A stretch of 64,000 nucleotides of DNA from Rhytidiadelphus loreus (lineage: Eukaryota > Streptophyta > Bryopsida > Hypnales > Hylocomiaceae): positions 18,724,001 to 18,788,000 of the forward strand of contig OX344764.1 in NCBI GenBank assembly GCA_947034895.1, in the 5' to 3' direction. How positions within the stretch are numbered: the stretch's first letter is position 1; every line of letters begins with the position of its first letter. The notes below the pieces were generated by a model. It had not been told where the DNA came from. It did no database searches and saw only the letters and a list, made by a program, of their open reading frames with translations. A program made the translations under genes and the position numbers. Positions 1-42,475 of this stretch are shown here, one piece after another.

Positions 1-13
1 TGAATGTCACGTT

Positions 14-113
14 GGTGGGTACCTTTTTGGGCAGGTCCAGCAAACCCCCGCCAGCCTCTAGTCAGATCCGACTAGGCTTGGGGTGGCAGCAACGAGACCC
101 CCCCATATTGGTA
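14..113. repeat. Foldback palindrome, copy 1
   Basis: An imperfect inverted repeat of about 100 bp is centred on the core TAGTCAGATCCGACTA (one mismatch from copies 2 and 3). Its arms begin with a GGTACC-type box and contain a GCAGGTCCAGC-like block on the left and GGTGGCAGC plus GAGACCC on the right. It shares the core and the GGTACC/GGTCC blocks with the palindromes at 341-458 and 5005-5106. No protein is encoded. It is probably a small foldback element or a dimeric protein-binding palindrome. The arms of this copy are more diverged from each other than in the other two copies. Confidence 0.7.
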
Positions 114-177
114 CCCGCGAGCGTGACACTCCATTCCGAGCTCAAAACTTTAGTTGTGATTTTTTTGGGAGAGACCC

Positions 178-280
178 TGATGCGTTGCGGGTTTGATTTT
201 GTGAGGCACTGCTGCGTTGCGGGTCCGATTTTGTGAGACACTGATTCGTTGCGGTTTGTGGGTCACTGATGCGCTGCCGG
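178..280. repeat. Short tandem repeat, about 33-bp unit
   Basis: About three head-to-tail copies of a unit resembling TGATGCGTTGCGGGTTTGAT followed by TTTGTGAGGCAC. The third copy is shortened. The array lies between palindrome copies 1 and 2. Nothing suggests coding function. Confidence 0.65.
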
Positions 281-340
281 TACAAATCTTTGAAGTTGAA
301 GAGCCATTTTTCACAGCCTCTCTCGTCAATGCAGTTGGTC

Positions 341-458
341 TCACTTGAGGGGTACCGATTTTGGCAGGTCCACCTAGTGCCACCCATGGCCTAGTCGGAT
401 CCGACTATAGCCTGAGAGGTGCTTGGTGGACCTGGCAAAATCGGTACCCCTCAAGTGA
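341..458. repeat. Foldback palindrome, copy 2
   Basis: The outer arms (341-374 and 425-458) are complementary over 34 bp with one mismatch: TCACTTGAGGGGTACCGATT pairs with its complement at the right end. The centre at 392-407 is a perfect 16-bp palindrome, TAGTCGGATCCGACTA. The inner arms pair less well. It shares core and box order with copies 1 and 3. Confidence 0.85.
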
Positions 459-544
459 CCATCTGGAAAGGATTCAAATTCGTTCTTTTTGATGCGTAAG
501 CATCTTTCAGCTCTGTGTGTGAGCTCGTCAATTTCAGTCATAAG

Positions 545-1290
545 TTAATCATCATGAACCTTGGGAGTTAGAGTGGTTCAGTGTCACTGAGCTCTTGGAT
601 ACGGATTATTTTCTTGAAAATTCTGGTTCTTCAACTGGATCGGTAGTTGCAGTGTCAGTTTTTGGATCACGAGGTCCAGTTTCTAATCTAGATTTGACTT
701 GGGGTTCTAAGGGTGCAAGAACTCAGATCATGAGCTTGAATTTTTTGTGAAATCTAAGCAGGTGCTGTTTAAGTTCAAGATTCGATCCTAGTGCGTTGCT
801 GTGAGTTTGAGCTCCTGGATACGGATTCGGAACTTGTGTATTCGGGATCTTTGAATGGATCGGTTGCTTGCAATTTCAGTTGTCGGATCATGAGTTCCAG
901 TTTCTAATCTTGATTTGTCTTGGGTTCTAGGGTGCAAGAACTCAGGTCATGAGCTTGAATTTTTTGTGAAATCTAGCCAGGTGTTGTTCAAGTTCAAGAT
1001 TCGATCCAAGTGCGCTGCTGAGAGTTTGAGCTCCTGGATACGGATTTGGAACTTGTGTATTCGGAATCTTTGAATGGATCGGTTGCTTGAAATTTCAGTT
1101 GTCGGATCATGAGTTCCAGTTTCTAATCTTGATTTGTCTTGGGTTCTAGGGTGCAAGAACTCAGGTCATAAGCTTGAATTTTTTTTTAAATCTAGGCAGG
1201 TGCTGTTCAGGTTCAAGATTCGATCGGAGTGTGCCGCTAAGAGTCTGAGCTCCTGGATAATTGGATATTCAGGATCTTTTACTAGATCGG
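545..1290. repeat. Tandem array, about 220-bp unit
   Basis: Roughly 3.3 head-to-tail units, starting near 545 (diverged), 762, 982 and 1201 (partial). Landmarks repeated in each unit include GTTCAAGATTCGATCC, GAGCTCCTGGATACGGAT, TGAATGGATCGGTTGCTTG and GGGTGCAAGAACTCAGGTCAT. The two central units are nearly identical, so the expansion is recent or homogenised. It lies about 1.3 kb upstream of the ParB/methyltransferase gene. 1291-2121 is AT-rich and contains TTAACCCTTAACCC near 1778; nothing else was recognised there. Confidence 0.85.
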
Positions 1291-2121
1291 GTCCACAAAT
1301 TTAAAATTCATACAATTTCGGTTCATATTTAATATTTAGTCTTGATTTTTTTATAGTTATAATGAAGAATGAATATTGAATATATTTATTATTATTTTCT
1401 TTTAATTATAGATTTTTTCATTAGATTTTTTCATTTTTTTCTTTTCATTTTAGATTTTTTTTATTAAATATTAAATATTATCTTATTGTTAGACTTTATT
1501 ATTTTAATTAATGATTTAATAATATTAGTTTCAGATCTAACTTTATTAATTTATAAATCTTTATCCAAACTCTCTCTGAAGTACAATATTATTTTTGTTG
1601 TAATTCCTTTATAACTTAGGTATGGGGTATTCTACCAATCTACCCTATAAGTAATGGAAGTTTTGAATAAGATTTATATCAGATACTGGAAATTTGAAGA
1701 GGAATCTAACACAAGTGGTTTCATATTTTTGGAAGCATTTTCTTGTTACTTATGGATTTTCAAAGGGTTTCTTTTTAACCCTTAACCCTTAACCCTATAT
1801 ATGTCTCAAGGTATTCTTTAAATCATTCACTTGCAATAGCTAAAAGAAAGTCATTTTCTTCAATCGGCTCTTACAATTAAATAGCATTTTTTTCATTCAT
1901 TCATTCAATGGGGTACATTCATAATGGTCACTTCATTTTAGAGACTCCTACCTTAGTAGAGAATTAAAAGACATTTGAATTTTTCATCTTCTTACCCTTT
2001 CGGGATAGAAATCCCATATGATGGTCTCTAGAGTTGAATAGCTCACAGATTTTCCATTCAAGTGCAAAATGGAATTTTTGTTTGAGTTTCAAGTACTAAT
2101 GTCCTTTTCTTTCCACTTGCA

Positions 2122-2623
2122 GATACATGCAGGCAGTGGAAATATAGCTCATGCTTCACCAGTCATGGTTGTAGATGGCATAGTCCCTGTTGGTGATGTG
2201 GCATGACCATCTCAGCCAAAGCTATCACTATCAAAGGCAAACTCTGACATCGAGATTTCCAGTGACAAATCGGGTGATGAAGATGATGAGCTTGATCTGG
2301 TAAGCTTCAATGACATCATGGATGCTGCTGATCGCGCTGTTGACCAATTTGAAGAAGAACCTGTGGCTAGTCATATTTCAGGCCCTCTGTCCCGGAAGCG
2401 GAAGGCACCCATTTTCTCAGATGAGAGCTCAGAGACAGAGTATAGCTCATCCAGCGAGTCATGCACTTTAGTTGGTGACAATATTAATACTTTTTGTAGT
2501 TGTGCAACCAGCGCCCCCATAGGCAGACATGAGGTGGTCATAATCCACCTCAGTTCAGATGAAGATGAGGATGTTGATGTCGATTCCTGTGGATTGGAAT
2601 TGATATCTATTGAGAGTTGGTAG
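2122..2623 (+). pseudogene. Acidic upstream exon(s) of the ParB/methyltransferase locus, interrupted by a stop
   Basis: An open stretch follows a good acceptor (TTTCCACTTGCAG, ending at 2121). In its frame a TGA occurs at 2204-2206. Downstream of that the frame stays open and reads like a genuine acidic nuclear protein: a Ser/Asp/Glu-rich segment, a basic SRKRKAP block, and a second acid run. An ATG at 2318 could start a 101-residue product ending at 2623. A GTAAGC donor-like site is at about 2300. I could not find a splice that joins this frame cleanly to the exon at 2822, so it may be a 5' exon broken by a CGA-to-TGA change, an upstream ORF, or an exon of an alternative transcript. Confidence 0.45.
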
Positions 2624-2821
2624 ATCAGTACATATTCAACAGAGACCTATTGAGTGTATGCAATTTTCATTGAGAGCTTTGCTTCATCTTGTCATAAAAG
2701 TTAATGCGTTTTATAGTAAAGAATGGTTTCTATGCTTTTATTTCATCTCTAAACTTTGTACACACTTCTATAATTGATTTTATATTTCAATATTTTGAAT
2801 AATTTATAAATGATGTTGCAG

Positions 2822-5800
2822 ATGGAATCCTCTCCTATCAATCAAACTCAAGAGGAGTGTATATTGGAGACCCCAGGGACAGATGACACCACTCAGCCAG
2901 AAATTGGGGTCCTAGGTGAAGGAGATGCAATGGACCTGGATGTTGTAGAGGATGAGGAAAAAGAGCTTCTTGAAGATGAACTCCGCCTCATTCAAAAGGT
3001 GGATTCTGTGGCAACACTTGCATCTTTGCAAATGCAACCTGAGAAGCTATTTCGGTTTCCAATCCCTTTGTGCAGGCTAGTGGCGATGCCAATGGTCCGA
3101 CCAACATTGGCTTGCGACATAAAGAAGCTGGAGCAGGAGTTTTGCCACGGGTACCGACCAGGAGCTGCCGCCCTTTACGTTTCCACCACAAACGAGGCAG
3201 GTGAGAGCATGGATTTCACAAATGAAGAAATGAGCAGTTGGGGACCGCTTTGGAGAAAGGCCAATGACGAGTTTGTGGAGCATATAAATTCACATGTGGA
3301 ACTGCATTTTTTAAAGAATGCTAAGCTCTTAGTATGTGACGGAAACCATCGTCTAAGAGCGTGGATGAGTCATATCCTTAGACTCCATCAATCAGAGGAG
3401 GTATGGCACATGGCAGTGGATTGTATAGTTCTTGACACCAAAGGTAAAGTGGAGTTGGTCATGCAAGTCATGCATGACATAAACAAGTAAGTCTATTTTC
3501 ATACAAATGAACCACTTCTATGTTTTAGTAGATTTTTTTTGACTTCACAGTACATATCTATGATATGTTCGAAAAGCAAATTGTAATTGGCTTCATGGAA
3601 ATACAGATCGACTGAGGACTCCCATGTGAAGACCAATTTGGTTCACACATTGTACAGGGTGCAGAAGTACGGCCTTCTACCCTTGCACAAGTTCATGGAG
3701 ATGTTGAGGCCATCAGAGGTGAAGAAGTGTATGGCACCAATTACTAGGAAAACCTGGTATTCAATGCCTGCTGATGTTTTCACAGCTTTCATGTTTCGGG
3801 TAAGATTTTAATTGTAAAAGTTTTCTTTCTAGAAAAAATGTTAGTGTTCACTATTATTTTTTCAAAGGTGGAGAATGTTTTCCTCTTTTTATTTTAATTT
3901 TGTTAATAAGACCTAGTTCATTGCAGCAAGAGATTTCAGTTGCAACGGATTTTGCGGGACGAAAATACACTGAGACGACCCCGGTGGGGGAGAGAAGCGA
4001 ACCCGGCATTGCAAATGCCATGAGAATGGGGGCTAAAGAGAAGGCAAACAAATTGTATATAAAGATGATGAAGTTAGTGGCAGTGGCTAATCCCGTCAAT
4101 GGTCCCCAATTCCTAGAAGAGGTAAATTGTTTTTCATACATTTGGCTTATAATAACATTGTACTTTGATCTTCATTTTTTATTTTAAATATAAACATATA
4201 TTATAATTTTGTAGGTAGAGAGGCACTGGAGTAATAATGAAGCCCCCGAGATGACACTCGAGAAATTGCAGCTAGTGGCTACTTGTCACACTACTCCTCA
4301 TCACAAGACAAAGTTCTTGAAGTGGTGGAATGCATCTCTGCCCTCTCGTGAGGCTCGGAAGTTTCTGGCAAAGCCGGTTTCGGAGACACTCCTTGGGCCT
4401 TTCTTGAACAGATGCGTATGGTGGGCTGGGGTAAGTACTTTGAAGGTAGTTTAAAGAGTTTAGTTTGAATTCATATTTCTTTTAAACAACGTTTTCTTTA
4501 CCACATTTACACGCACATGACTTTGTAGATGATGAAAGCTAATTTATGGTTTTTTTTGGAGAAGATTGAAGATGCAACGATGGAGTACTTTGAAGGGGTG
4601 GTGAGAGACGATAACATCCCAATCAACATGGTTGTTCCACAATGCCCAGAGCACTTAGTAGATTACGTGGAAGGATGGAGGAGGAAGATTTGGGAGCAGG
4701 GTTTCATGGCGCATTTAAAAGGAGCAAACTATTTCAAGAAGGGTGATTCCTTCATGAATTTTGAAGGCTCTAGCCAAGCAGTTCGTAGAGTTCTTTTCCG
4801 GTTTGTTTTCTGAACTTTCTATAAGTCAATTACCTAATGAAAGATGAAGATGCCAAGTACACCTCCAATTTTTGTTTCCAAATGGGGTTCCATTTCATTT
4901 TTCTTTATTCCAACTTACCTTTCTATGTTATTGGGAATCCTATTCATAAATTATTTATTGTATTATTTCCTTGGGTTCACTTCGGAACTAAGTGAAAACG
5001 AGTAGGTGTACCAAAAGTTGGGGGTCCAAGTGGTACCTCCAAGACCTTAGTCGGATCCGACTAAGGTCTTGGAGGTACCACCTGGACCCCCAACTTTTGG
5101 TACACCATGTGGTTTTAATGTTTCTTTCCTGATATCCATATTTTTTTAAATCATCATGTGAAATTCTTTATTGAATTTCTATTGTTTTATTTAATTACCA
5201 TTTTTTGGGGACATGTTTTTTTATGCACCAAAACTAATTTATTTCTACTAGAGGTTGGAACTTGTATGTAATTGATTTTTCGCATTGACCTTCAGATATT
5301 TCAAGTTGGAGCTCCTTCCAAAAGGTGCAATTTCCCAGAGTGATCTTCCTCCTTTTTTGTCTGCGTGGCTTGATCGTAGTTCGGCGGATTGCATGTATAC
5401 TACGAACCAACTTCGGACATTCACGACAGCTCATCTCAGTGGAGGAGGGTGGTATTTGGAATGCCACATCACCTTCACGCCATCGTCAGAAGTAGAGTAC
5501 AGGAAGTCATTTGACGGCCTTGGTGCCATTGACTTGGACGTTGAGGAGTTCGTCGGCCTCAGTGAGAGACAGAAGAGGAGGGCCATCAACAGGAGGGAGC
5601 ACAATGACAGAAAGAAGGAAGCTCGGGAGAAACTTATCTTCAGCACGAAGGAGAAAAAAGAAGCTGATAGAATCGCAAAGTTGGCAGAGAAGGAGCAGGA
5701 GAAGGAAAAGGAAAAGGAAGAGGAAGAGAAGGTAAAGGCCAAAGGCAAGAAAAAGGTGGACCCTAAAGCCCCAATTCCAGCATCTTCTACAGTGGATCAA

Positions 5801-7499
5801 GTCTCGCAAATGCAAGGCACTTCTCAGGTCAGAGTGAAGAGGAAGGCCCTCTCGCAGTTGACTGAGGACGTCATCACTCACAGAACCCAAGCTCTTGTCC
5901 TTCTTGAAGATGAGGAAGATGACATAGAGGATTTAATCCTTAACATCTCTGTTGATGACCTCGTGGATGACATGCGGTCTCCTAAGCCGACTTCGTATGC
6001 ACAGGTTTTGGATTTCTTGAAGAAGGTACAATTTCCTTTTTTTTTAGTAAATATGTATTTTGAGTGGAATGACATGAGATTCATTTGAATTCATAACTGA
6101 TTTTTGTGAATGCGACTTTATTGTAGGTATCACCAGGGAAGTCTCGATTTTTCGAAGGTGTAGTTAATCGAAGGCCAGGGGTGGATCTCATCTTCTTTGA
6201 TTGTCCGGAGAATCTACCTGTTCCGGAGATTTCTAGTCCAAAAAATGAGGTTCCGGCATGGAACGAAGACATTGAGTACGAGGCTATGCAGTCAATATTT
6301 GCTTTTGCGGAAAGGCATCTACAAGACCATGGATGTTTGATAATTATCCACTCATTCTCTGTGGCTTCCAAAAGCGCAATTAAAGGATTGTGCGAGGTTT
6401 ATCCAATGTTAAAGAAGAAGGAGTGGTTGGGCATGAATCGCCTGTATTTGACTTCGGCATTGGATAACACAACTACGGTAAGTATAATGTCAAATTTTTA
6501 GCAAAATGATGTTAGTTTATCATTCATTCTGTAATTCAATTCTTACATTGAGGGGGGGAGATGTTTGCAGACGCAGAAGTTTTCAATTACCCTTTTTGTG
6601 AAGGATTTGGGTGCGAAAGGGAAATCCAACTTCTCTTTCAAATACACACAGATGATGAAGAGTGCGGGTCTTGACATTGGACGTGACGATATCTTGATGA
6701 ACTTCACCAAAGAAAGCGACTTGGCGATGGATGGCCCTAAGCCATGGCGTGGGGCTCGCGAAAAAGACCCCCGGTTTTTTCAACTCCTCCTTGAAGCCAC
6801 AACCGATGAAGGAGATGTAGTGCTAGATTGCACTGCAGCTACAGGTGCAAATTGAATACTCTAACCACGGATTTGATTTGAAATTTGTAAATGCATCATT
6901 CAACTTATTTATTTGTTGTTATCCAATCTGGACAGGTGCATCTATTACGGCTTGTCGTGGTACAGGGCGTCACATTGTGGCGTTAGAGGAAGATGGGGAC
7001 ATTTTTAAAGCCATCCTTGAACCCATGAAGAAGTCTATCCCGGTTGTAGCGCCAACACAACTAGTAGTGGCAGTTCCGGAATTTGAAGATCCGGACGGTA
7101 TGCCCATTGTAGCTCGCAAGTTCGCCCGGAAGACACCGTTGAGTAAGTAAGTTTGCAACTTTTCTGTATTTTTTTTTTCCATGGCATGTTTGACGTTTTG
7201 TGATCTAAGATTGTTTCACTTCTACTTGCAGTCTTCAACGATTGACATCAGTAGGTGGATTGATGAAGACACGAAGACTTCTCTTGAGTCCAGAGAAGCC
7301 TTTTCATCTTCCTGTCTATGCCGAGCAGATGGCATCGGCATTTGCAGAGTTTGGTTGTTCTAAACCAAAACGCCGTAAAGATACGTATGCTTTGAATGTT
7401 TTGGATTTTATAGATGGTAGTGCATGTGAGAGTAGAGAGACTTCAGAGTCATCATCATCTACGACTGACGGTTCTGCGACAGCGTCCACTGTCACTTAG
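2822..7499 (+). CDS. ParB-like/DNA amino-methyltransferase-like protein, 10 exons
   Basis: Exons read as 2822-3486, 3607-3799, 3927-4121, 4215-4430, 4529-4800, 5296-6025, 6127-6477, 6571-6844, 6936-7146 and 7232-7499. All have GT-AG borders and matching phases, giving 1124 residues without a stop. An in-frame ATG at 2810 lies before the acceptor, so the true start may be further upstream. Residues 1-60 are acidic. About 75-205 resemble a ParB/sulfiredoxin-fold domain, with the signature CDGNHRLRAW at 172-181. The middle (about 220-600) is unrecognised. About 605-668 is a Lys/Glu coiled coil with basic, NLS-like runs. The C-terminal part carries amino-methyltransferase motifs in the order motif IV (FFDCPEN, DCPE at 782-785) then motif I (VLDCTAATGAS, 958-968) followed by RHIVALEED. 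That order is the one seen in beta-class N6-adenine/N4-cytosine DNA methyltransferases. DCPE replaces the usual (D/N/S)PP(Y/F/W), so activity is doubtful. The tail is Ser/Thr-rich with a basic PKRRK. Likely nuclear; the function is inferred only. Confidence 0.75.
5005..5106. repeat. Foldback palindrome, copy 3, in an intron
   Basis: A nearly perfect palindrome of 102 bp lies in the 4801-5295 intron of the ParB/methyltransferase gene. The arms start GGTGTACCAAAAGTTGGGGG and pair with one mismatch over about 50 bp. The centre at 5048-5065 is TTAGTCGGATCCGACTAA, which contains the same 16-bp core as copy 2. It can form a very stable hairpin in RNA or single-stranded DNA. Confidence 0.9.
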
Positions 7500-7909
7500 A
7501 CTCTTGAGATTCACATCTCTTGAGTTGAACTATTATGTGTGGATTTTTATTATGATTTGGATTTGTGTGTTTTATGACTATATCTTGGATGCTTGTTATT
7601 TGAATTTGAATTTTTTAAACCTAGTGACCTAGATGACTATTGACAATAATCACAATTTACTCTAAACCCTAAAACATCGTCCACATACATTTGCAAGTTC
7701 CTCAAATTCCATTATAATGACTCTATATTTTCTGAAATTTAAATATTCTAAATCCACGGTCATAGGTACCAACTTGTTTTTTCTTTGAAAAAAATTCCCC
7801 GCTCACAGGTTCACAGGCTCACAGGCTCATGCTCACAAGCTCACATGCTAGCAACCCTGGTGACTGGAAGCAAAAGTTAAACCACAAAAAGCCTAGAATT
7901 GAACTTGGC
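7500..7909. other. 3' flank of the ParB/methyltransferase gene
   Basis: AT-rich sequence with no convincing ORF. It includes TAAACCCTAAAAC near 7663 and a short run of CTCACAGG(T/C)TCACAGG repeats at 7801-7850. It probably contains the 3' UTR of the upstream gene. Confidence 0.5.
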
Positions 7910-9090: not shown

Positions 9091-11230
9091 GCAGTGGGCT
9101 TCTGGGCTTCTTCCTGTCTGCATTCATATTTTTCCCCTTTTGCAACATAGCCAAATCATAGCCCACTAGAGTAAGCTTGTCAGAGTTAAAATGGAAGGCA
9201 GGTTAAAAATAGTTCGAGAATCTCCAGTGCCATCGATGCTGAAAGTCAAAAGCACAGTATATACCCTTGCAGTGTGTTTCCTTAACACGCTTGTGTCAAA
9301 AAAAAAAAAAAAAACTACACGAAGAAGTATGATCGATGCTGCCATTCTCCATTGCTGAAAGTCAAAGTACAGTACATGGAGAAATATTATCGATCCTCTG
9401 AGATCTTCGTGGAGCTTCAAATGTGCTCGTGCAATGCACCATGCCGCCACCCAAGGCATGCATGTGGCCCTGAGGGTACTGGATAAATTAAAACTCGGCT
9501 AATGGTTGGTGAATCTGAAGAGGCATTTGGAATTAGATTTTAATACACGTCTCCTTGTTCGATCGACGACTGACACTGCTGTCAATCACTATGATCTGCA
9601 TTGTCAATGTTGATGACGTGGTTTCGAACTCTTGAGTTTTCAATTCGATCTAGACTTCGACAGGTTCCAGCTGGCTAACGTAAGTGAGGCTGGTGTCACG
9701 AGCAATCTAATTCAAGCTCCCGATTCGTGTACCCTCACGACTGCACGCACAACAACATGCAAGTTTTAAAACTCTGCCAATGTTAGCCAAATACTTACTT
9801 AGAAATACTGGAGTTTTTTTTCCAGTTTTAACCTCCAAAAATAGATGTACTTTGCATTCTAAGTTACTGTGCGTTCTAAGAATGCAGTCACATACTGGCG
9901 ATGCCTGTGAAAAAGTCAAAAAAACTAGTTTGTTTTTTCCTATTGAGAGAAGGCAAACTGAAGTGGTCAAAGGTGGCACCATTGGTGAACTGGGGCTCCC
10001 TGTTGTCCGTCATGTCAGGGTTTAACTACTTAAAAATACCAGCGGCCCAAGTACTGTACCGGTATCCACATCTCCAGGCAGGTAAAATTTCAAAAGCCAC
10101 CGTCCTTGTGAGAGTCTTCGCGATGACGTGGTGACGGTTAACAACTCTAGAAACAGGCAAACCTCCGCTTGAGGATCGGAATCCATGCTGACATAGTCTT
10201 CCGCATTGATCAGATTCTCGAGGAACTGGACAATACTTTGTTTGTAATGGACTGGCTATTTTCTGCACGTACAGCGCAATCAAGGTGACGCCGGGCGGGC
10301 GAGGCGATCAAATGGTGCCAGATTTGCCATTCGTTTGACCACGAAATCAGGGTCAATCCGTCCTGCATCAGAAATTCAAGCGTTGTAGGGTGCGAGGTTT
10401 CAGTGGAGCGCCATTTGAATTGGTGTGCTCTATTTCGGAGCTAGCATCGGAGCTAGCAACAATCCTGAAAGCCGAATACCAAACAGTGGATAGACTATCG
10501 ATTCAATCTCACGGATTCAGAGATCTATAGATCTAGAGTGGAACAAGGGTCAGGCTATCGAAGTACTGTACAATTGCTGAATGATTTTGCAGCCGGCGTT
10601 CCAAGCTTGAATTAGATCACAGGTCCAACTATAATAGTACTAGACTAGACTTTCAGTGCAAGTGCAAGAGATCTGGATCGAAAGTCTTGAAGTCTCTCGT
10701 CTTCAATTCGAAGCGACTGGCAGGGTCTAGGTCGCCGAGAGTAATGATCGCTTGGCTGAGCTTGGTCCAACACTCAACTTGAATGTGCACAAGTTTCAGC
10801 TTCCACAAGGAATGTCACAAGGGTTGAGTGTGAGAACAGAGGTGAAATCTTCGATGTGCCATGGTACGTCTCTCAGTTTTTTGCTTTCAAGCTGCAATCG
10901 TTTTTAGCCTCTTGGAAGAATGTGAGGAGCCCTAGATCGATCTGTTCTGTGAATCCTGAACTTCTGGTGCAAACGGCTGATCATACAGATTGCGGTTCCC
11001 AATTGCGCAATGCATGATTGGGAATGAAAATGCTGTCGGAGCTCGGAAGACGAGTAATGGAGACCAGTGATGGGTACGAGTTGCGTGAATTCTTCGTCAG
11101 CTTCACGATTTTCATGTCGCCGAAGGAACTGCACTTGCAGTTTGATTCCGCCAGAGCTTTCAGATGAAGCCGCGGAGGAAAGCAGCTGTGTGATTACGCA
11201 GTCACATCGTGAGCCGATCAATCGACACCC

Positions 11231-13143
11231 ATGGCGGATAAGCAGCAGCCGCCGCCGCTCGTGAGCTTCGATGTGGACGAGGTGCGCATCCCGTTCGCGC
11301 TCGGGAAGCGCGTCACGTACAAAGTCCGCATCACGAGCTTAGTCTCCACGACCTCCGTGGCGTACAAGGTGCAAACCACGAGCCCCAAGAAGTTTGGCGT
11401 GAAGCCGCACACAGGCTTCCTCCCACCGCTCGCCACCGCCACCTTCATCATTTTCTTGCACCCCCAACAGGAAGTGCCCGAGGATTTTCCCATCTCCCGC
11501 GACAAGTTCCTCGTCACCACCATGCTCGTCCCTGGGGAGCAGTCCCCGCCACCATCGCTCGTCACGCTCAGCGAGTGGTTCGCCACCAAGCGACATCAGG
11601 TATGGCCAAAGTCGCTACATTACCAAATTTGTGTGATTCTAGCGAACCTAAACCCTAAACCAGGATTGTTACACAGATCTGTGGTTTCGGATGTGGAATA
11701 ATCCTCTTGAAATTTCGCCTTTTTCATGAATTTAGCGAACGTTTAGGTGGTGGTCGCTGTGAATTAGCGCCGTCAGATATGCCCAAATTCGTTACATTGC
11801 CAAAATTGTGTGATTCTAGTGAGCCTCAGAGCTTTAAAAGCCAGGATTGTTTCATAGATCTGGGGTTCCTGATGTGGAAGTCTCACGAAGTTCAGTGGTT
11901 AAACGTTCAGGTGGTGGTCGCCATGAAGATCCGCGTGGTGTACGTCGGCGGCGAGATTCTCCGTCTCTCCGCGGCGAAAGGATCCCGTGACTCCATCCAA
12001 GACGTGTTGTCCCGCGGAACGAACGTGAATGCGAAGGACGAGCAAGGTCGCACCGCCCTCAGCATCGCGGCGTTACGCGGCGATCCCCACGTCGTCCAGG
12101 AACTTCTGGACGCGGGCGCGGCCGTGGACGGCCCCCGTGGCGCGGGTCTGACCCCTTTGCAAGAAGCGTCTTTCGCCGGTCACTCAGCCATCGTCACGCT
12201 TCTGTTGCGAGCCAAAGCTAACAAGGAGCTTCCTTCGCATCCCCGCGGCTGGACGGCTCTCCATCTCGCAGCCTCGCGCGGCCGCGTTGGGGTGCTACGA
12301 ATCCTCCTCAAAGCCGGTGCGAATGAGAGCGCTTCTGATAAAGATTCACGAACCCCCTTGCATGCTTCGGTGACGGAGGGCCATACGAAAGCCGCGCTCC
12401 TGTTGCTTCAGCACGGCGCGGACGCGGATCCCCGCAGCCGCGACGGTCGCACGCCGCTGCACTGCGCAGCGATGGCGGGGCATTTGTCCGCCATGGAGCT
12501 CCTGATCGACTGGGGCGCCAGCAAGGAAATCAAGGATCGCGACGGGAAGACACCATTTGAGCTCGCGATGGAAAACGGACACACGTACGTTTTGGATCCA
12601 GTTCTTTTGTCCCAGTTTTTGCACAAAGCGGCGCGTGAGGGGAATGTGCAAGCGCTCCAGCGATGCTTGCTGCAAGGCGCGCTCGTGAACGGGTGCGACC
12701 AGTACGGGTTCACTGCGCTCCACCGCGCGGCGTTCAAGGGGCACGCCACCGTTATTCTTGTGCTCCTGGACAACAAGGCGGATGTGAACGCGCGTGACAG
12801 GGAAGGCTACTCCGCGCTTCATTGTGCGGCGATCTCGGGTCACGTCGAAGCGTGCGCCGTGCTACTCCAGAATGGCGCAGACACGAACGCGCGGTGCGTC
12901 AAAGGCGCCACGCCGCTGCACGTTTCGGCGGCGATGAACTTCATGACGGTGGTGTGCTTGTTGCTCGATTGTGGGGCGGATGGAACCATCCAAGCACTTG
13001 ATGGACGCACAGCGTTTGATATTGCCGTGGATGCGCGGCACCATGATCTCGTACCTGTGCTTATGAACCTCCACCAGGAAGTTGATGATTGTAGTCCTCC
13101 GCTTGCCAATGTCCCCCTCAAGGGTAAGGAAATTCTTATCTAA
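11231..13143 (+). CDS. VPY: VAPYRIN-like MSP-ankyrin protein
   Basis: Two exons, 11231-11599 and 11911-13143, joined in phase 0, give 533 residues. Residues 1 to about 140 form a major sperm protein (VAP-type) domain, from LVSFDVDEVRIPFALGKRV to the closing KIRVVYVGG strand encoded by exon 2. About 147-515 holds around ten to eleven ankyrin repeats, recognised by repeated G-TALH-AA-GH and LL--GA patterns. MSP plus about 11 ankyrin repeats at this length is the VAPYRIN layout. VAPYRINs act at endomembranes and are needed in angiosperms for intracellular accommodation of arbuscular mycorrhizal fungi and rhizobia; homologues exist in mosses. The coding sequence is much more GC-rich than its surroundings. 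A GTAAGG donor-like site lies a few codons before the stop, so a further 3' exon cannot be excluded. It is convergent with the DCL-like gene, 339 bp away. Confidence 0.88.
11600..11910 (+). repeat. Internally duplicated intron of the VAPYRIN-like gene
   Basis: The intron consists of two diverged direct copies. TATGGCCAAAGTCGCTACAT (11601) recurs as TATGCCCAAATTCGTTACAT (about 11779). The acceptor region ACGTTTAGGTGGTGGTCGC (about 11740) recurs as ACGTTCAGGTGGTGGTCGC at the real exon 2 border. The upstream copy therefore keeps a usable-looking acceptor, after which the frame meets a stop within a few codons. Confidence 0.8.
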
Positions 13144-13482: not shown

Positions 13483-14570
13483 TCAAAAACGAGTATAGGC
13501 TCCATTGCGTTGGCTTGCACGCCGCGGTGCGTAGTGTTTAGAATCGTTCCGGTATCCAGGACACTCTTTGGCAGCTTTCTCCTTCAGGCACTTGTGGAAA
13601 CTGAAGTCTATCTCAGTGTCGTCCACGTGAACCACCCAGAAGCAGCGTGTTATGTCGTCGTAAATCTTTTGGATCTGCAGGGATTTTAATCGACATTAGC
13701 TTTCTATTGCATCCTATTTGAGCAGGCACCCAGAGTTTCAAAACTGTTGGGTTCACATCGATCAATGGAGATCAATTCGTAAAATCAAGGCAGTTTTTCC
13801 CAATTGCCAAACTGAGTTGCACAGGCATTACTTCCTTAGTTTGAACAACCGAGGACATGCCTGGGGTTGAGTTTAGTACAAATTGCACAAAGCTGCACCA
13901 AATTAAAGCCATTGAACTGCCAATGCCTGAAATGAACAAATGTCCCTTAATTGATTTACTTTAAAATGGACTGTTTTGATTTTACCTTGATGTAAGCAAT
14001 CCCCGGACCGGTCTTCTGTTTGCAATTGGGGTGGGACTTGAGGACATCACGAACTGCTATTTCGTCCCCAGGAGAGAGACGATCACCGTCCATGTACTTC
14101 CTGCACACACACACACACAGCAATCATCTTAACCTCTGGAGGACCTTGAAGCAAAAATTTATGGTTGAATTTAACCAACTCACACATGCAAAAGATCATA
14201 ATTATTGTGAATACCATAGAATTCAGATGGGACCAAATTCGGAAGAGCTTTCTTACGGATTGTGCAAAATTCCTCTCATGCGATGGTACAGGTCGTCAAT
14301 CTCCTGCCGCTTATCATGAATCTTGGTCCCCAAGGGCGCGTGAAACAAGGCATTGAAGGCACTCACTTCACCGGTTTGGGGGGCACTCCCTGACTTCCCA
14401 GAACTCTCCTTGGGTGGCGAGACTTGAATTCGAAAAAGCTGCGTGAAAACGGGTTCGAGCATCGCCATCACATCGTTCGCCTGCTCATCGACCCCGACTG
14501 GGGGTGAGACAGACTTCCCCTTGGCAACTGCATCCCCTTCGTCGACAACTACTTTTCTTTGAGAAGCCAT
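13483..14570 (-). CDS. DCL/DeCL-domain (DUF3223) protein, copy 1
   Basis: Three exons, 14570-14257, 14100-13986 and 13674-13483, give 206 residues. An in-frame ATG at 14612 would add 14 residues (MFSKLVKRGLSSEA) that look like an organelle presequence. The N-terminal half is variable. Residues from about 85 (LGTKIHDKRQEIDDLYHRMR) lead into the DeCL domain, with MDGDRLSPGDE, VLKSHPNCKQKTGPGIAYIK, TRCFWVVHVDD and IDFSFHKCL. This domain occurs in plant DCL (defective chloroplasts and leaves) proteins, which function in plastid rRNA processing, and at the C terminus of the RNA polymerase V largest subunit. This is a stand-alone version. A (CA)n run lies next to the exon 2 acceptor. The second copy is at 22292-23328. 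Confidence 0.87.
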
Positions 14571-14612
14571 AGCTTCGGAAGACAGACCGCGCTTCACCAG
14601 CTTCGAAAACAA

Positions 14613-15082
14613 CCACTAGCTCAAAAAAAATTAGCTCAGGAATGTGTGCGCTCTCTACTCAGGACACTCAGTCACAAAGCTGGCAAAGGCTTATATGCTA
14701 AGCTGAAGACGTCATATTCGTATCAGCTTGGACTCTAGTGGGTTAATTAAGTTAGTAGTTCTCTAGAATTACCTTCGTAGCATGCCCAGTACTGTGAGTG
14801 AGGCCGGTTTGAGTCATGAAGCGCAGACAATCAGCCTACGAGAGTCGTCATAACAATGAATTTCTTAGCCTACCATGCAAGCTCTTCGTAACAATGAATT
14901 TCAGAATACGTACAATGCGCTTCATGCTTCATGATTTGCAGCCGCCGGGAGCTGCAAGAACTATAGTTTTCAATGGGCGGCTTGACTAGCTTGCCATGTA
15001 AGTAAGTTATTTGAGAAGTTTCTGGAGGATTTAACTTTTTTGTATTTGAGTTGGGATCGTTAAGTTATTGTGTGTACGTTGA
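14613..15082. other. Promoter side of DCL copy 1 and end of duplicated block
   Basis: The sequence to about 14990 is homologous to 23385-23765, with shared blocks such as TACGAGAGTCGTCATAACAA and GCTTCATGATTTGCAGCCGC. It is therefore the upstream part of the duplicated segment. Beyond about 15000 the similarity stops and AT-rich repeat DNA begins. Confidence 0.65.
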
Positions 15083-22291: not shown

Positions 22292-23328
22292 TCAGTACGT
22301 CGGATTGAGCGCCGGCCGCGGTTTGTAGGATTTGTAGAGAAAATCGTACTGCTCAAGGAGATCTGGACACTCTTTGGCTGCTTTCTCCTTGAGGCACTTA
22401 TGGTAGCTGAAGTCTATCTCAGTGCCGTCGACACGGACCACCCAAAAGCAACGTGTGTGGTGGTTGGAAATCTGTTGGATCTGCGGGGTAAGTTTTCAAT
22501 CGACATATATTAGCAATGTGAACTGGCATCCAGAGGTTCACATGAATGGAGACACTTCTTAAGAGAAGACAGATTTCCCAATTGCCAAAACTGAAATGCG
22601 CAGGGTACTTCTTCCTCGATCAGGATAATCATAGGTTTAAGTCTTGTACAATTGCACAAAACTTTACCATTTGAAAAGCCACTGAAAACTGACAAGCAAT
22701 GAAATAAACTGTCCCGCAATGAGATATCAATCTTGATTTTAATATATATATGGACTGTTTTGGTTACCTTAATATATTCAATCCCCAGACCGGTCTTCTG
22801 TTCGCAATTGCGGTGGTACTTGAGAACATCACGAACTGCTGTTTCGTCCTCATGAGAGAGACGTTCACCGTCCATGTAATCCCTGCACACATAAAAAAAA
22901 AATAATAACCTCCGAGGTATCAAGCAAACATTCATGATTTGAACTTGACCAACATATGCAATTATAGTCAGATCATATTGTAATATATAATAGTCTAATT
23001 CAGAGGGGACCAAATTCAAATATGAAGGTTGAGACGAGTTTTCTTACGAGCTGTGCAGAATTCCTCTCATGCGATGGTACATCTTGTCAACCTCCTTCCA
23101 CTGAGGTTGAATCTTGGTCCCCAAAGGCGCTTGAAACAAGGCATTGAAGGCACTCTCTTCACCGCTCTTTGCACTCCCTGACTTCCCAGAACTCTCCTTG
23201 TCTGGCAAGACTTGAAGGTGTTGAGTGAAATCTTCGAGTACAGCCACCAGATCACTCGTCTGCGCATAGACTCTGGCTTGGGGTGAGCCAGGCCCTCCCT
23301 TGTCAACACTCTTCCCTTGAAAATCCAT
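22292..23328 (-). CDS. DCL/DeCL-domain (DUF3223) protein, copy 2
   Basis: Three exons, 23328-23048, 22882-22768 and 22480-22292, have the same phases as copy 1 and give 194 residues; an in-frame ATG at 23367 would extend it by 13. The DeCL domain is intact: MDGERLSHEDETAVRDVLKY, NCEQKTGLGIEYIK, TRCFWVVRVDG, IDFSYHKCLKEKAAKECP. VRVDGTEIDFSYHKCL is closer to the family norm than copy 1 (VHVDDTEIDFSFHKCL). After KECP the two copies have unrelated C-terminal tails. Open frames in both copies suggest both are under selection. The likely role is plastid or nuclear RNA processing, inferred from the family. Confidence 0.87.
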
Positions 23329-23399
23329 AGCGACGGTAGGCTGAGGCTTAGAAACATTCAGACTCACAGAAACTAAGCTTCAGCTCTCAAGAAAGTGTG

Positions 23400-26610: not shown

Positions 26611-29600
26611 TACCTAAAGCTCTCTCCACAGTTGTACACTGATCTCCCGAAAATTACAGTCCTACATGTGTTCGAAAGTGACACAAATAGTACTCGCTTC
26701 CTTACATTCATTCTGGACGAGACAAGGGAGGATTTCTGAAGAAGATTCAAAGCACATACCATATCTGCTTGTAATATTTTGAAGTCTCTCTCCAGCTTTT
26801 GTAGATGCCTTTCTAAAGACTGTAAGCCAAAACATAGGCGCTATCAGTTCAAGCACATGATTTATAATAGTATTACGTTTCAGCAACGATACGAAGCAAT
26901 ACGAGCTTAAAACCAAAAGTATCAGTTGCATGCACGAGCAAGAAAAACAAAACAAGGGCCCAAATGTTTATGTGAAGCAGTGTAACAGTCATTAGAAGTT
27001 GCTCAAGATTTTTAACTTTAACCCCTAATAGCCCGAAAGGCCTACTGCAATCGCTTCCATACCAGGAGTTGAAATAAGCAATTAGGAAGTTTTAAAGAAG
27101 GAAACAAAATGTACCAACACAAAGAAGAAAGCATACCCTTCATACTTAAACGATAGAAAAATGTTTTGAACGTTACTGTAATCGACTAATAGCTTCCAAA
27201 GTCGACTCTTTCTTTAAAATTTGAGCACTTGGGGGTTACCTACCTATAGCATAGTATCAAATCAAGGTGTTTATTTGCAGCACGAAGGAAGTGAAACTCC
27301 AGAAAGTAGGAATTTACCCGTTTTCTCCGCTTCTGATTGAAGCGCTGCCAGGCCTCCCTCTTAGTCAGCAATCCGCGTGGCCTTAACCCATTGGGGTGGC
27401 CCTGTGGGCTTATCCCATCAGTGGGGCGCTGATAATTCTTGCCACGGTACACAATGATGGCTTGGCCAACAGGGATGCTACAAATGCCGACCACAACCCC
27501 TCCACTCTCGATTTCAAGCATCCTCGCTATTTTCTCGACCGCGTCCTTTTCTCGATACATGAAGTAACTCTTCTTCACAATGATCTTCACTAGTTCCCTC
27601 CACTTCCAGTTTAGATGCATATTCTCTATTATCCCTCCAAATACTTCTCTCCTTCCTGAGCAGAACCGAAAAGTCTAAAATCAGAATCATGTTCAGATGT
27701 GACGAAACACAGACACCGTTTGCGAAATTTCAACTGCATTTAGGGGACAGGATAATCAGTAGAACCTACGATTTCTATCAATGATTCAAGTCTCAACCGG
27801 AAATGGTATAAGAAGTCTCTTCAACATAGTCTTTATTTCTTCACCCCTAAGTGCCCAAATCGCAGATCATATAGGAAGCTTTAAGGACGGTAAACAAATG
27901 TATCAATCGAAAAAATAATTCACGTTATATTTTTGGAACGATAGAAATGTGTTTAGGAAGTTATTACAATCGACAAATAGCTTCCAAATTCGACTTTCAA
28001 TTTTTAGTTTGGGCAACTAGGGTTAAACCCTCAAAGTTTTGATTTAATGCTTCCGCTCCATCTTCTAATACCTCAAGAGAAATCAGTGTAATCACCAATG
28101 ATAACTGCGCTAATTCTACACGTTGAAACAGCTCTACGATAATGGAATGAATCGTACAAGAAATAACAAAAAACAATATCTTACCTAGGAGAAGATATGA
28201 TTTCATACGCAGCCCAATCTTCCGCAAAATATATATTTCCTCCTCTGAAACTTGCTCATTAGCTACTTGCATACTTTTAGGTCTCACCTTTAAATCAAGA
28301 TTTTTCAGCTCTCTCTCAGTCCTATCTATCTTTTGAGCAACCTGAAGCAGACATACCACAGCATTAATCGAGGACAATCAAAATTCTTCCTAACAAGCTT
28401 TTATAAGTCCCGTAATCCCTATGACAAGTTCCTGTTACCACAAGAACTAACTGAACTGAAGGCCCATCTTTGAGTGACGTATCTTAAGAGTTTTTCAAGA
28501 ACATTCAAGATAATTAGTTCACTATTGATATGGCCAAGAACATACACAAGACGTCATATATCTTGCGATTATCGCCAACACTCCTCAACTTAGAATTAAC
28601 TCTTAGAATCATAGTATTCAGATGAACTCACCAGATTGAGTAATCTCTGCATCCTTTGCAAAGCTTGATCTCTTGCAGATTTCCGTATTTGAGTGGAACA
28701 ATCCTTGCTGTTTTTCCAAGGGTCCCACCTGGCCTTTTCCTCCAGTGACTCTGCTAGAGTCCCGGCATTCCTGTTCACAGCACAGGGAAGACAGAGAATT
28801 CACAAATAAACATCATAAAACCATGAACCACGCATCTCTAACCATCTTCACTTTTAAGTACATTAAATCGTTCAAACGGATGACAGTACCTAGGTTTTAA
28901 AGGTGCACCAACAACTGGAGGAGCATTGCAAAAGCCAGCCAAACGGGCCCTTTCTTCCTCCTCCAGGAATGTCGAAACCAAATGGCTCTTTTCCTCCAAA
29001 GTCCTCTTCACTACAGGCGGTAGAAAGTCGTTCCCTCGAAAGAGTGCAATATAACTCATGTTTCGGGTTATTAGGTCTCCTCCAGTAAGCCTCTGCACAC
29101 CAAAGCCACGCACACCGCAATGTCACATCTGTCCTCCCTTCCAAAAAGTAATCTGCATAAAACGCATATTTAAAAGATCCAGCGTAACTCACCATCAATT
29201 CTGCAGCCATACGGTCATTATCAATTCTCGAGACACTTCTCTTCATAACAACTTTAACAACTTCGCTCTTTTCCCACAACTTCACAATAGCTGAGGCCAG
29301 TCCTTCGAGTCCTCGGTGTTTCCCTGGAAAGAATCGTGCATATGAATTAACCCACATTTCAATCAAATATAGAGAGTGAGTATTGAAACTATGTACCCAA
29401 AGATCTTCCCACAACTCTATAAACCTCCCCAAAACCACACTCCTAGATATGTTCAAATGCATTAAGTGACGCAAATGTCTACCTTATGCAATAAAATCAT
29501 TTCACATAAAAGATAAATCTCCTTTATGCACAAAGAAGCGGTTTGCACATACTCACCAAGTGCAAAATGTGGAGGAAGTTTTATAGCCAGATGTCGCATC

Positions 29601-32600
29601 TCCGTCATTTCAAAGTTCGAAAGTCTAGGTCTCACTCCATACAGCAGTCGCCTAAAGGGACTTCTGAAACCCGAATTCGGAGGTAACAACAAATCTCCAT
29701 CAACTGGAACATGTCCATCCTCATTCCACTCTGTGTACTGTGGTCCCAGATCATCCAGAAGATCCTCGATTTCTGTCTCCAGGATCTGCAAGTCATAGGA
29801 AGTTTTATCTTTTTTCAACTGCTCTCTTTCATCTTCTTCATCCAAGCCAAGAGACTGTAGTCGCTCTCTGTAAGCTTCCTCCCTTTCCTCAAACTTGCGA
29901 ATCCAACCGGGGACGTAATCTTTTCCACGATAAATTACCACTGCGGGTCCCTCCCTCCATACGACTATTCCACCAGTCAATCTCTGCAAGCCGAACATAT
30001 CAAATCAATACCGTTGTAGGCACTGAGCTGAAAACTCATAGAGGGCTCAAAGTGTTCGTGAAACATGTGGAAGACTCTTCCTACTCTACTTTCTTATATT
30101 TGTGAGGAATTGCATAACATCAATAACCCCAACATGCAAAAATCAAAATGATAAAGATCATTTTGAAAACTCATAGTGAGAAAACTCATAGTGTTTCAAG
30201 ACATATTTTTGTCGTTCCAAAATGTAGGGTATGATTTCTTCTTTCTATCAGTACACTTTGTAACTTTTCTTGAAGCTTCCAAGCAATATATTTTAACTCC
30301 TATAGATATAGGTATAGACCACGATTTGGGCACGTAAGAGAGTAAAAGGACAGACTCTGCAACAACTCACGAAAAATCAAAACTCCATAAGACTTGACGA
30401 AGAAATTAGTGAACGTATAATAACTCATACAACAGCACCAAGCACTTAAATTATGCCACTTGTCAACTTTGATTCTTTCAACAAGCAAGATAAATAGATA
30501 GTTACTAACCTCAAGATCGTCATGGACCTTCCTCATGCTGCGTCCGGGTACTGTACATCTCACTTTTGCAATCTCAGACACAAGCCACTTACTATGGATC
30601 GACTTCACAATTCCCCTAGTGACCCCTTGGGTACCAATCGTCATCCAACCCCTTATTGTCGACCTTAAGGCACACAACCTCTCCAATTCATCTCGCGGTA
30701 TAGGTATGTCATCCTCATGTTCATCTACATCTTTTGCTTGCCTCCACATAACCAAAGTACTCGGATCATCGTCATTGCCTTTGTCCATCTTCGAAGGTTT
30801 ATCAACTTCCAAAACAGTGTTCCGCAGTGAATCCAAGTGAATTTCTTCTTCGGACCCAAGGTTTGAGATGTCTGTGCAATCTGAAGGCTTCTCTTCCAAA
30901 ATAAAATCCCAAGCACCGTCATCAGTCTTGACCTTCTCCAAGACGGAGTTAAGGTCATATTCAGATTCCTTCAATACCACTACTTCCTTGGAGTTGATTG
31001 CATTTTGCCATAATCTATCGAATTCTGATATTGCGTCCTTAGTTGCCATGACTGCAGTGGCATTCGTGCTTGATGTTACTGCATGCTGGTCTCTATCACT
31101 CATTACCAAAGCTTCTTCAGATTCCGCAAGCGCATTTTCTATGAATGATGAATCTCGAGCCTTGCTGCTAACTTGGTCTTCATTTTCTGATGTAAGTTCT
31201 TTATCAGAAGTGAGATCTGCGGTTTTAGCATATAGTTGCTCCTGAAGTAAGATGTCTTCAGATTGGAGATCAGATCTTGTTCCCTTGAGTGTGAAATCTC
31301 TATATTGGTTTCTCAAGCTACCAATCTCTGTATTAACATTATCTCCAAAATGTTCATCTTTCTGATTGCTACAGTATTGAGTAAAGTCATGTACGTCACT
31401 TTCATCATCTTGTGGGGTCATCTCTGCGCCATTTTCAGATATGATCATCTCGTAAGGTTCGGTCGCTGCACCGGAGATATTCTCATCGTCCTTGTTCTGG
31501 CTGAATTTCGACCCTCTCCACAGCAACATAAAGTGTCTGTCGAAAGAAAGAGGCACACATGGCACCAAATCCTGTCAGAATAAAAAATTCCATCAGAAGA
31601 GTAAGGGAAAAGAAAAATATGCGAAAAAGCAGTAGGAAATGAGTACCGGTAGTTGCAGTTGAAGGTTAAAGACTGTCAGATATCAACTATGAACCTCACA
31701 ACATCTCAAAAGATCCCCTAGTTAGCTTGACAAGTTATTTCAAGTTCATATTAACAGCTGCGAATGTGATGTCAAGTTATGGCTAATGGTACTAACATCA
31801 CACTCACATCAAGTTAACACCATTTGCATTGCACAAACATTGACTGAAAATGCACTCGACATATGGACTATATGAATCTAATGCCAATTCAGTTAATCCC
31901 TAAAGGACCGGGGTTGGAAAAAACCGTGTTGCAGAAGCCACCTGGTGGCCTTGTGGTCCTTTAGGGGTTAACGTTAAGACCTTCGTCATCTAATGGGGGT
32001 CTTTTGAGATGAATGTACTTCAGATAAAAGACAGGATCTCGAGAGAGGAGATGCTAATATACTGAAAATCATCCAGCGTATTATCAGGGCTTACCCTAAG
32101 TTTTGCACCAATTTTCTTCATATCACTTCTCTCTAACTCCCTACAGTCCACTTTGACGAGCTCGTCAATTTCGAATGCGTCCTTCACCATCTTCACCATG
32201 TTTTGGTACATCCCAGCCCTCTCTGAAAACCAATAGCTGGACTTGTTAGGCAGCTTTCAAACCTCTTGCAAGAAAAATTCAATCATTCTCACACTTCTCT
32301 TCTAAAATAAGATTCAAGTCTACTACAAGCATGTAGCACCAAGAGTTTGCTGCTGTATAGAGAGCAAAGCGCTAGAGGTGTTTTAGAAAACTTAGAATTG
32401 TAACGAATTTAGGGCAGTTTCTAACATAAATTTTGCCATTTGTAAAGCAGCCAAGTTTTTCTAGAACACCTCCAGGGGTGAGTTCTCTACAAGTGAACTA
32501 TTGTCACATGCCATGATCAAATTGCAACCTACTTTGATTATCCTTGCGCTTGAAATGTTCTAGATAGGAAACTTATAAAATAACAATGAGCATTCGAAAG

Positions 32601-41799: not shown

Positions 41800-42475
41800 T
41801 GTTAAGAATGTTATGATCGCAGTTGAGAAACAAGAAGGGGCTCCAAAATCATAAACTCGTCATCTCATCCCCAACGCTTACAAAGAATTGTAAATCTCCA
41901 AGATCTGACAGGGAGGGTTGCAGGGAGGGTTCCAGGAAGGATTTAGGGCTTAAAGTTTGGGGGTTATGTCATACACACCCATCTATCCTGCCATCAATGT
42001 TGGGTACCAAGGATTTCAACATGGGCATCTCAACGATTCTGCTCGCACTGGACAACAAGCTATCCTGAGAGCCAGAGGTCGTTAAGAATGTTATGATTGC
42101 AGTTGCAACACAGGAAGGTTGTCCAAAATCATAACCCCGTCATCTCTTCCTCAAGACTCGCAAAGAATGGTAGGTCTCCAAGATCTGCCTGGGAGAATTA
42201 CACAGGCAGGGTTTAGGGTTTAACCATCTAACTCGCCACTAATGTTGGGTGTCATGGGTTTCAACGCAGAGGCATGTCCACAATGCTGCTCACACTGCAC
42301 AGCAAGCTATCTCCAAGATCTAGCAGGGAGGGTTACGTACAGAGGCAGGAGTTTAAGGTTTAGTGGTTTTGTCATGCGCACCCATCTACCTCGCCATCAA
42401 TGTTGGGTACCATTAATTTCAACGCAGCGGGATCTCCACAATTCTGCTCACACTGGACAGCAAGCTATCCCTTGA
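41800..42475. repeat. Tandem triplication of the receptor kinase 3' end
   Basis: Three direct units begin near 41806, 42080 and 42310 (the last running into the coding end of the kinase gene). Each contains TCCAAGATCTG-type sequence, CAGGGAGGGTT, TTAGGGTTTA-like sequence, CGCCA-CAATGTTGGGT, TTTCAACGCAG and TTCTGCTCACACTGGACAGC. The last block encodes, on the minus strand, the final residues of the kinase ([14 protein letters not shown] and stop). The two downstream units thus contain decayed copies of the gene's last codons and 3' UTR. Confidence 0.8.

Follow-up and report, generated by a model that had tools for sequence, protein, structure and literature searches.

The window considered here, 64,000 nucleotides of the genome of Rhytidiadelphus loreus (Bryopsida; contig OX344764.1, positions 18,724,001 to 18,788,000), begins inside a class II DNA transposon that is large and present in many copies, the genome being of plant type. 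The gene at 2822..7499, whose product joins a ParB-like domain to a DNA methyltransferase-like (MTase-like) domain, belongs, as one copy, to a large family of repeats, and because of copy number, sharp ends, and target-site duplications it is almost certainly an accessory (non-transposase) gene of that transposon. The protein probably helps the transposon to handle or protect its own DNA.

The evidence for the transposon comes from its copies. A search of the genome's own 407 Mb with exon 1 of the gene gave 150 scored matches and 1376 candidate places, the best 20 matches being 93–100% identical and lying on five large scaffolds. The copies have a right end in common, exactly at 7859 of the window, and the left end lies 8.4 kb before the window, at L042:3610, the whole transposon measuring 16,250 bp (Table 1). 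Its terminal inverted repeats consist of 14 exact bases accompanied by short subterminal repeats, similar ones occurring at the left end, and the outermost seven bases of the two ends are unlike (CAGGGTT on the right, CAACGAC on the left). All four copies in which both ends were read are flanked by target-site duplications, of 9, 9, 10, and 10 bp. The transposase-like gene is oriented divergently to the ParB-MTase gene, and the tandem repeats in the non-coding middle are different ones in other copy groups.

Table 1. Features of the transposon and its ParB-MTase gene. Positions are those of the window unless stated otherwise.
Feature	Position	Strand	Remarks
In-window part of the 16,250-bp transposon	1..7859	+	sequence common to the copies stops exactly at 7859
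Remainder of the transposon, 8,391 bp	upstream of the window (L042 from base 3610, and L041)		carries the left end and the transposase-like gene
219-bp tandem repeat, 2.8 copies	636..1259	+	non-coding middle of the element
Acidic exon/ORF	2123..2623	+	stop at 2621-2623
ParB-MTase exon 1 (as modelled)	2822..3486	+	acidic N-terminus and ParB/Srx-like domain, about residues 75-213
CDGNHR motif	residues 172-177		within the ParB/Srx-like domain of exon 1
ParB-MTase exon 2	3607..3799	+	
ParB-MTase exon 3	3927..4121	+	
ParB-MTase exon 4	4215..4430	+	
ParB-MTase exon 5	4529..4800	+	
ParB-MTase exon 6	5296..6025	+	middle region, charged and acidic stretches
ParB-MTase exon 7	6127..6477	+	start of MTase-like domain; motif IV position DCPENL
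ParB-MTase exon 8	6571..6844	+	MTase-like domain, motif X/I region (PWRGAREK ... VLDCTAAT)
ParB-MTase exon 9	6936..7146	+	end of MTase-like domain (GASITACR...HIVALEED)
ParB-MTase exon 10	7232..7499	+	C-terminal tail, stop
Subterminal short repeats (CTGTGAGC type)	7801..7849	-	
Right terminal inverted repeat	7839..7859	-	14 bases (GCTAGCATGTGAGC) identical to the left end
Target-site duplication GTGACTGGA, 9 bp	7860..7868	+	partner copy in L042, immediately outside the left end

A preliminary description, made from the letters of the window, had joined ten exons in phase into 1124 residues, and this model is confirmed by the GT..AG borders of all introns and by the other genomic copies. When combinations of exon boundaries were compared, one of the eight, the ten-exon model alone, gave an open frame. 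The model is not due to chance, because 17 of 20 other copies of the gene could be followed through all ten exons, the exceptions being two incomplete copies (L024 and L033) and one with an insert of 591 bases (L025). Exon lengths in the other copies are mostly the same as in the window (exon 6 commonly differs by 6 bases), and the intron site preceding exon 9 is the same in relatives. The motifs CDGNHRLRAW and VLDCTAATGAS stand where that description placed them, and its reading of ParB/Srx-type and amino-MTase-type folds within one intron-containing gene is supported by predicted structures. The modelled N-terminus is probably incomplete, with one or more further 5' exons upstream, since an AG acceptor immediately precedes the "ATG" at 2822, where several of the aligned relatives, inspected by eye, have I or V. 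The acidic ORF, which is open in 15 of 20 other copies and interrupted in the window copy, is possibly a second product or an alternative 5' exon.

The predicted structure of the N-terminal domain, of moderate confidence, is an alpha+beta fold of the ParB/sulfiredoxin type, for which the Foldseek support is weak when taken alone. In an alignment of the window protein with 30 relatives picked among the 120 listed, CDGNH is invariant and the R that follows is at least 90% conserved; beyond that alignment, copy L035 has CNGNHR and L043 has WDGNHR. The active-site Arg of the superfamily sits in a G-x-x-R motif. Judged from motif and fold, the R of CDGNHR would be the conserved active-site Arg that PMC5512222 describes for the superfamily, and the assignment of the domain to the ParB/Srx type is supported by the structural model. 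The profile PF02195 (ParB_N) found no match in the window protein at E 10 nor in the 31 aligned sequences at E 1, and in a search of the genome itself it matched at only five places, on small contigs. The catalytic Cys of sulfiredoxins lies in the motif GGCHR, and its position is occupied by Asn in all 31 aligned sequences, unlike a sulfiredoxin. The domain probably binds nucleotides and DNA.

The C-terminal domain is predicted to adopt a permuted fold of the beta-class amino-MTase type, with motif IV before motif I, a prediction made on the partial domain of a relative. Among the active enzymes that it matches are CcrM, MboIIA, and the N4-cytosine enzyme of a bdelloid rotifer (PDB 8s9m), and assignment to the beta-class DNA amino-methyltransferase type is supported by modelling. 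Sequence-profile searches of solved structures gave CcrM at E 0.85 and otherwise unrelated matches. The motif I region is matched by phage DNA-MTase profiles and, below cut-off, by PF01555. The fold matches and these profiles, along with the D and second P retained in motif IV and the acidic residue retained at the motif II position, speak for an active DNA amino-methyltransferase that would place 6mA or 4mC on the element's DNA or on that of the host, so that the element is marked, protected, or derepressed, the ParB-like domain acting as a targeting or NTP-switch domain. Against this, the catalytic motif IV of DNA N6/N4 methyltransferases has the signature [DNS]PP[YFW], and in its place D-x-P-E is found in all 25 sequences where the motif was located, 17 of which are copies fetched from the same genome and hence not independent (motif IV was unreadable in three further copies, L024, L033, and L039). 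In the window copy, motif I also has Ala in place of its first Gly. With D-x-P-E instead of DPPY, ordinary base methylation appears doubtful, and I regard the active enzyme as an unlikely explanation.

The preliminary description had proposed a dN/dS test; run between two close groups of copies, it gives 0.22–0.25, demonstrating that the protein is constrained between the groups. A distant relative (L043) keeps both the ParB/Srx and the MTase domain at 26–40% identity. The constraint weighs against passive cargo, that is, a gene acquired from the host or from a foreign source in the manner of Pack-MULEs and without a role in the element, as do the 367 relatives of exon 1 in other samples and the finding that, also in five pairs only 63–66% alike in exon 1, the gene follows the left end on the same strand. 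Captured sequence is frequent in plant Mutator-like elements (MULEs) according to PMC6446971, and the gene is interrupted in 14 of the 21 copies examined, both of which speak for passive cargo; it is nonetheless very unlikely.

The module may have been captured from bacteria or viruses; the searches gave no relative among prokaryotes or viruses near enough to identify a donor. A search for full-length homologues gave nothing at E ≤0.001 (pieces of the protein did find relatives), and NCBIfam gave no match for the four proteins searched. A bacterial donor was rejected: a scan of genome_contigs with the MTase alignment alone matched only two short contigs of a cyanobacterial metagenome bin, and these would be misbinned eukaryotic DNA, because the relatives on them are broken by intron-type gaps, one at a site used in the window gene. 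In viral_contigs the exon 1 pattern matched 137 stretches and the MTase pattern 87, none of them confirmed with the two alignments. A viral origin, with the element as what is left of a giant virus or of something phage-like that had integrated, would fit the occurrence of ParB and methylase in one bacterial protein and the recurrence of both domains in phage polyvalent proteins (PMC5512222), but the unconfirmed viral matches and the transposon ends and duplications make it extremely improbable. Just as improbable is an ordinary single plant gene, a chromatin or defence factor: its clean intron-exon structure is countered by the many dispersed copies, the sharp termini, and the target-site duplications, which refute it at this locus, and the "plant gene" that the preliminary description took to be captured and domesticated is here the cargo of a multi-copy DNA transposon. 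A domesticated element gene was among the options which that description named.

The class of the transposon was sought in its ends and its transposase-like gene. The right end, read inward, begins with CAGGG, recalling hAT transposons. These make target-site duplications of 8 bp, and the hAT reading was dropped because the duplications here are 9–10 bp and the left end lacks CAGGG. Duplications of that length fall within the 8–11-bp range of MULEs. Like MULEs, the element has terminal inverted repeats, but those of MULEs are commonly hundreds of bases long, unlike the 14 bases and short subterminal repeats seen here. A local MULE profile aligns with the D region of the transposase-like protein, without significance, and a SWIM-like zinc finger appears at E 0.033, below cut-off. 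PF10551 (MULE transposase) matched 30 places in the genome, none of them at the transposase-like core, in which respect the element differs from MULEs; membership was not demonstrated by profile search.

Mutator-like plant transposons have 8–11-bp target-site duplications and an extra gene beside the transposase, according to PMC6446971. The present element likewise has an accessory gene next to a transposase-like gene, as do MuDR (mudrB) and Arabidopsis VANDAL/Hiun (vanB, vanC), but its protein has ParB/Srx- and MTase-type domains, unlike the accessory proteins of those elements, and a word search of the text of PMC6446971 found none of "parb", "methyltransferase", and "methylase". Rapidly diverging non-coding tandem repeats are the targets of VANC (PMC10398659), and in the present element, too, the tandem repeats are non-coding and vary from one group of copies to another; VANC is compared here by role alone. 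Bce_0392 of Bacillus cereus, a ParB domain fused to an adenine methylase and with nicking activity (PMC5512222), is like the present protein, by domain description alone, in having both domain types in one polypeptide, but here the gene contains introns and is borne on a transposon, and in its product the middle region is long and motif IV degenerate. A survey of titles and abstracts in the searchable literature (exclusive of subscription papers and preprints) found none on a eukaryotic transposon with a ParB-MTase gene. Eukaryotic transposable elements with a DNA-methyltransferase-type gene are reportedly present in dinoflagellates and charophytes, as retrotransposons with C5-cytosine DNMTs, in contrast to the beta-class amino-MTase fold, ParB-like domain, and DNA transposon found here. 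The N4-cytosine methyltransferase of bdelloid rotifers, reported to deposit 4mC as an epigenetic mark, differs in that it is not known to have a ParB domain or to be borne on a transposon.

The accessory protein would, then, act on behalf of its transposon. The ParB-like domain may settle on element DNA, where either the subterminal TGTGAGC repeats or the tandem repeats specific to each group are candidate sites. The MTase-type domain would contact element DNA and perhaps SAM, most likely binding or remodelling rather than methylating, because it lacks the ordinary DPPY motif, and the acidic regions might recruit partners. In this way silencing of the element would be relieved, or its transposition helped, as with VANC in VANDAL or mudrB in MuDR. 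Taken whole, this account (ParB loading, a non-methylating MTase-type domain, silencing relief or help in transposition) is somewhat favored over its negation. As to role, the best guess, by analogy with mudrB or VANC, is an anti-silencing factor or a helper that binds DNA; it falls a little short of an even chance, and the exact biochemistry is held with less confidence still. Rather unlikely, if less so than active methylation, is that the protein is a dedicated, sequence-specific anti-silencing or DNA-marking device, its ParB-type domain loading on the element's repeats and its MTase fold so remodelled that DPPY gives way to a new conserved signature, D-x-P-E-[ND]-[LF]-P-[VI]-P. If true, a counterpart of the VANC system would have been invented a second time and independently, from domains known in prokaryotic conflict systems.

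Accessory genes of transposons are known, but to my knowledge few have a known action, VANC among them. A conserved, high-copy transposon gene with a ParB-type domain and a remodelled amino-MTase fold is a testable candidate for countering silencing or managing transposition. It is also a warning: where plant annotations show bacterial-like "ParB-methyltransferase genes", these may be carried by transposons and not be domesticated horizontal transfers.

The preliminary description took the ten-exon ParB-MTase gene (window 2822-7499), which joins a ParB/Srx-like domain to an amino-methyltransferase-like domain, for a single plant gene, a reading refuted at this locus by the many copies of its exon 1 in the genome together with the sharp ends and target-site duplications described below. 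A search with exon 1 of the R. loreus assembly (407 Mb in 489 contigs, five of them 51-94 Mb long) gave 1376 candidate places, and the best 150, which were scored, all matched. The top 20 rows, 93-100% identical, are spread over all five large contigs. I compared 20 copies of 10 kb, comprising rows 2-17 of the exon 1 list, one copy that is 90% identical and three that are 66-68% identical. Five matches to the Pfam ParB family PF02195 (L001-L005) also occur in the assembly, on the small contigs C234, C293, C199 and C308, which are probably bacterial contaminants.

The copies share a right end, the motif ...CTAGCAACC[CT]TG, found in 18 of the 20 (one copy has G for T) and not in L024 or L033; past this motif the DNA is different in each copy. 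An inverted match to the right end marks the left end at L042:3610, in the DNA upstream of the window, and 8,391 bp of the element therefore precede window base 1. Querying the genome with the left end gave 45 rows, of which 40 were analyzed, five second fragments being left out. Of the 40, 33 begin at the proposed end (within the first 11 query bases). At least 26 of the 40 have a copy of exon 1 on the same strand 7.3-16 kb downstream (a lower bound, as the count used just 31 of the 150 exon 1 rows, chosen by eye), as compared to a chance expectation of about 0.03 per row. L024 has the left end, and its right end was not found in the DNA covered. With both ends and their target-site duplications located (see table), the element of the window measures 16,250 bp.

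Features of the element, its copies and the rest of the window
Feature	Location	Remark
Element right end	window 7859	end motif common to copies
Element left end	L042:3610, outside window	inverted match to right end
Target-site duplication	window copy	GTGACTGGA
Target-site duplication	L021	CTATGAAGT
Target-site duplication	L023	CTAACTTACC
Target-site duplication	L030	AAGTTTAAAA
Tandem repeat, 219-bp unit	window 636-1259	
Tandem repeat, 566-bp unit	L028, L031, L036 (L036 69-1734)	
Tandem repeats, 267, 85 and ~43-bp units	L038 (267-bp unit at 1839-2325)	
Acidic ORF	window 2123-2623	immediately upstream of ParB-MTase gene
Ankyrin-repeat-like protein ORF	window 11213-13140	by eye
CRM-domain RNA-splicing-factor-like ORF	window 27243-31574	by eye
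Receptor-type-kinase-like ORF	window 42422-42862	by eye

Divergent to the ParB-MTase gene, L041 (upstream DNA) holds two long minus-strand pieces of one frame (408 and 320 aa), and L042 adds more open pieces. By eye, the frame has a region rich in Cys and His as well as a core resembling D..A..C-x2-H, and judged from its sequence the gene looks like a transposase. In all three other copies compared, this core is present where expected, at 85-96% identity. No Pfam or NCBIfam family matched the frame above its cut-off; a SWIM-like finger fell under it (E 0.033), and a CLU match (E 0.008), also below cut-off, seems spurious. The MULE profile PF10551 hit 30 places elsewhere in the genome and not the element's core, to which a local MULE profile aligned without significance. 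Because MULE profiles gave no significant match at the core, the element is assigned to the class II transposons, its duplications being Mutator-like and its membership in the MULEs unproven. The window copy has a premature stop in this frame, at a place where the three other copies have none; one of these, L059, has a stop elsewhere.

The exons proposed in the preliminary description do join into a single open frame of 1124 aa, ending at 7499, with GT/AG boundaries. Just one of eight combinations of GT/AG boundaries tried gives an open frame. This model is not a matter of luck, because 17 of the 20 other copies can be traced across all ten exons, because most aligned rows from other samples stop at or close to the end of exon 1 (by eye), and because metagenome relatives, L043 and the window gene share the position of the intron that follows motif I (CTAAT|GAS). 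Exon lengths in the traceable copies are mostly identical to the window's, exon 6 commonly differing by 6 bases; L024 and L033 are truncated and L025 has a 591-base insert. The frame is uninterrupted in 7 of 21 copies, counting the window. Three of these have lost an acceptor AG (L021, L023 and, by alignment, L031), and four are fully intact (window, L029, L035 and L036). One splice acceptor each was lost in L021, L022, L023 and L028 by CAG to CAA, changes that would fit silenced copies whose methylated cytosines have decayed.

The dN/dS comparison of homologues proposed in the preliminary description (pairwise NG86) gave 0.22, 0.25, 0.24 and 0.25 in the four pairs between two close groups, and 0.85, 0.73 and 0.72 in the three pairs within groups, where changes are few; the copies compared all had uninterrupted frames, a choice that favors low values. 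The protein was therefore kept while the groups diverged, and single copies decay later. The C-terminal tail is near 1 (0.84-1.41) in between-group pairs. The acidic ORF is open across its stretch in 15 of the 20 other copies and is likewise constrained between groups (dN 0.027-0.040 vs dS 0.118-0.174, five pairs); it may be a separate, third protein of the element or part of alternative 5' exons.

Beyond this genome, exon 1 found 367 relatives at E ≤10 among 508 candidates (metagenome and genome proteins), the best 120 of the 367 all at E ≤1.2e-57, and the MTase piece found seven. No relative among the matches listed has a Pfam annotation, and none on a viral contig was confirmed. Two contigs of a cyanobacterial metagenome bin ("Synechococcales"), L043 and L044, carry interrupted, intron-type relatives and are likely misbinned eukaryotic DNA. 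L043 retains every part of the architecture, at 26-40% identity; a single in-frame stop interrupts its longest piece ahead of the MTase part.

A short palindromic unit (GGTACC with AGTCGGATCCGACT) recurs at window ~1-128, 338-459 and 5005-5116 (one in intron 5) and at L041 ~60-130, and has the look of a MITE-like family of small inverted repeats. Elsewhere in the window, two similar small minus-strand ORFs (14256-14615 and 23047-23379; ESSGKSGSA...SAFNALF.APLGTKI, by eye) are apparently a duplicated gene. The ankyrin-, CRM- and kinase-like ORFs look by eye like ordinary plant genes adjoining the element.

The ParB-MTase gene is thus carried as cargo by a transposon, and it is conserved between groups. 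Additional ORFs are known from MULEs (PMC6446971), and C5 methyltransferases from retrotransposons (PMC5890265). Word searches found neither ParB, methyltransferase nor methylase in the text of the former, nor ParB or methyltransferase in that of PMC7466625, which deals with transposons of P. patens, and searches of the openly available literature listed no description of a ParB-MTase gene in a eukaryotic transposon. Between the transposase-like and ParB-MTase genes lies non-coding DNA with group-specific tandem repeats (none seen in the stretch of L040 examined). Their units, differing between groups, resemble the fast-diverging non-coding tandem repeats on which VANC, the anti-silencing protein of VANDAL elements, acts (PMC10398659). 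A bacterial ParB-methylase with nicking activity is reported in PMC5512222. These parallels suggest tests and prove nothing for this element.

Two folds are supported for the protein by prediction. Its action would be directed at DNA, in the transposon's interest. The favored reading is a non-methylating DNA-binding or remodeling factor, for anti-silencing or transposition. Less probably, the protein is a methyltransferase that is active despite a changed motif IV, or the gene is passive cargo.
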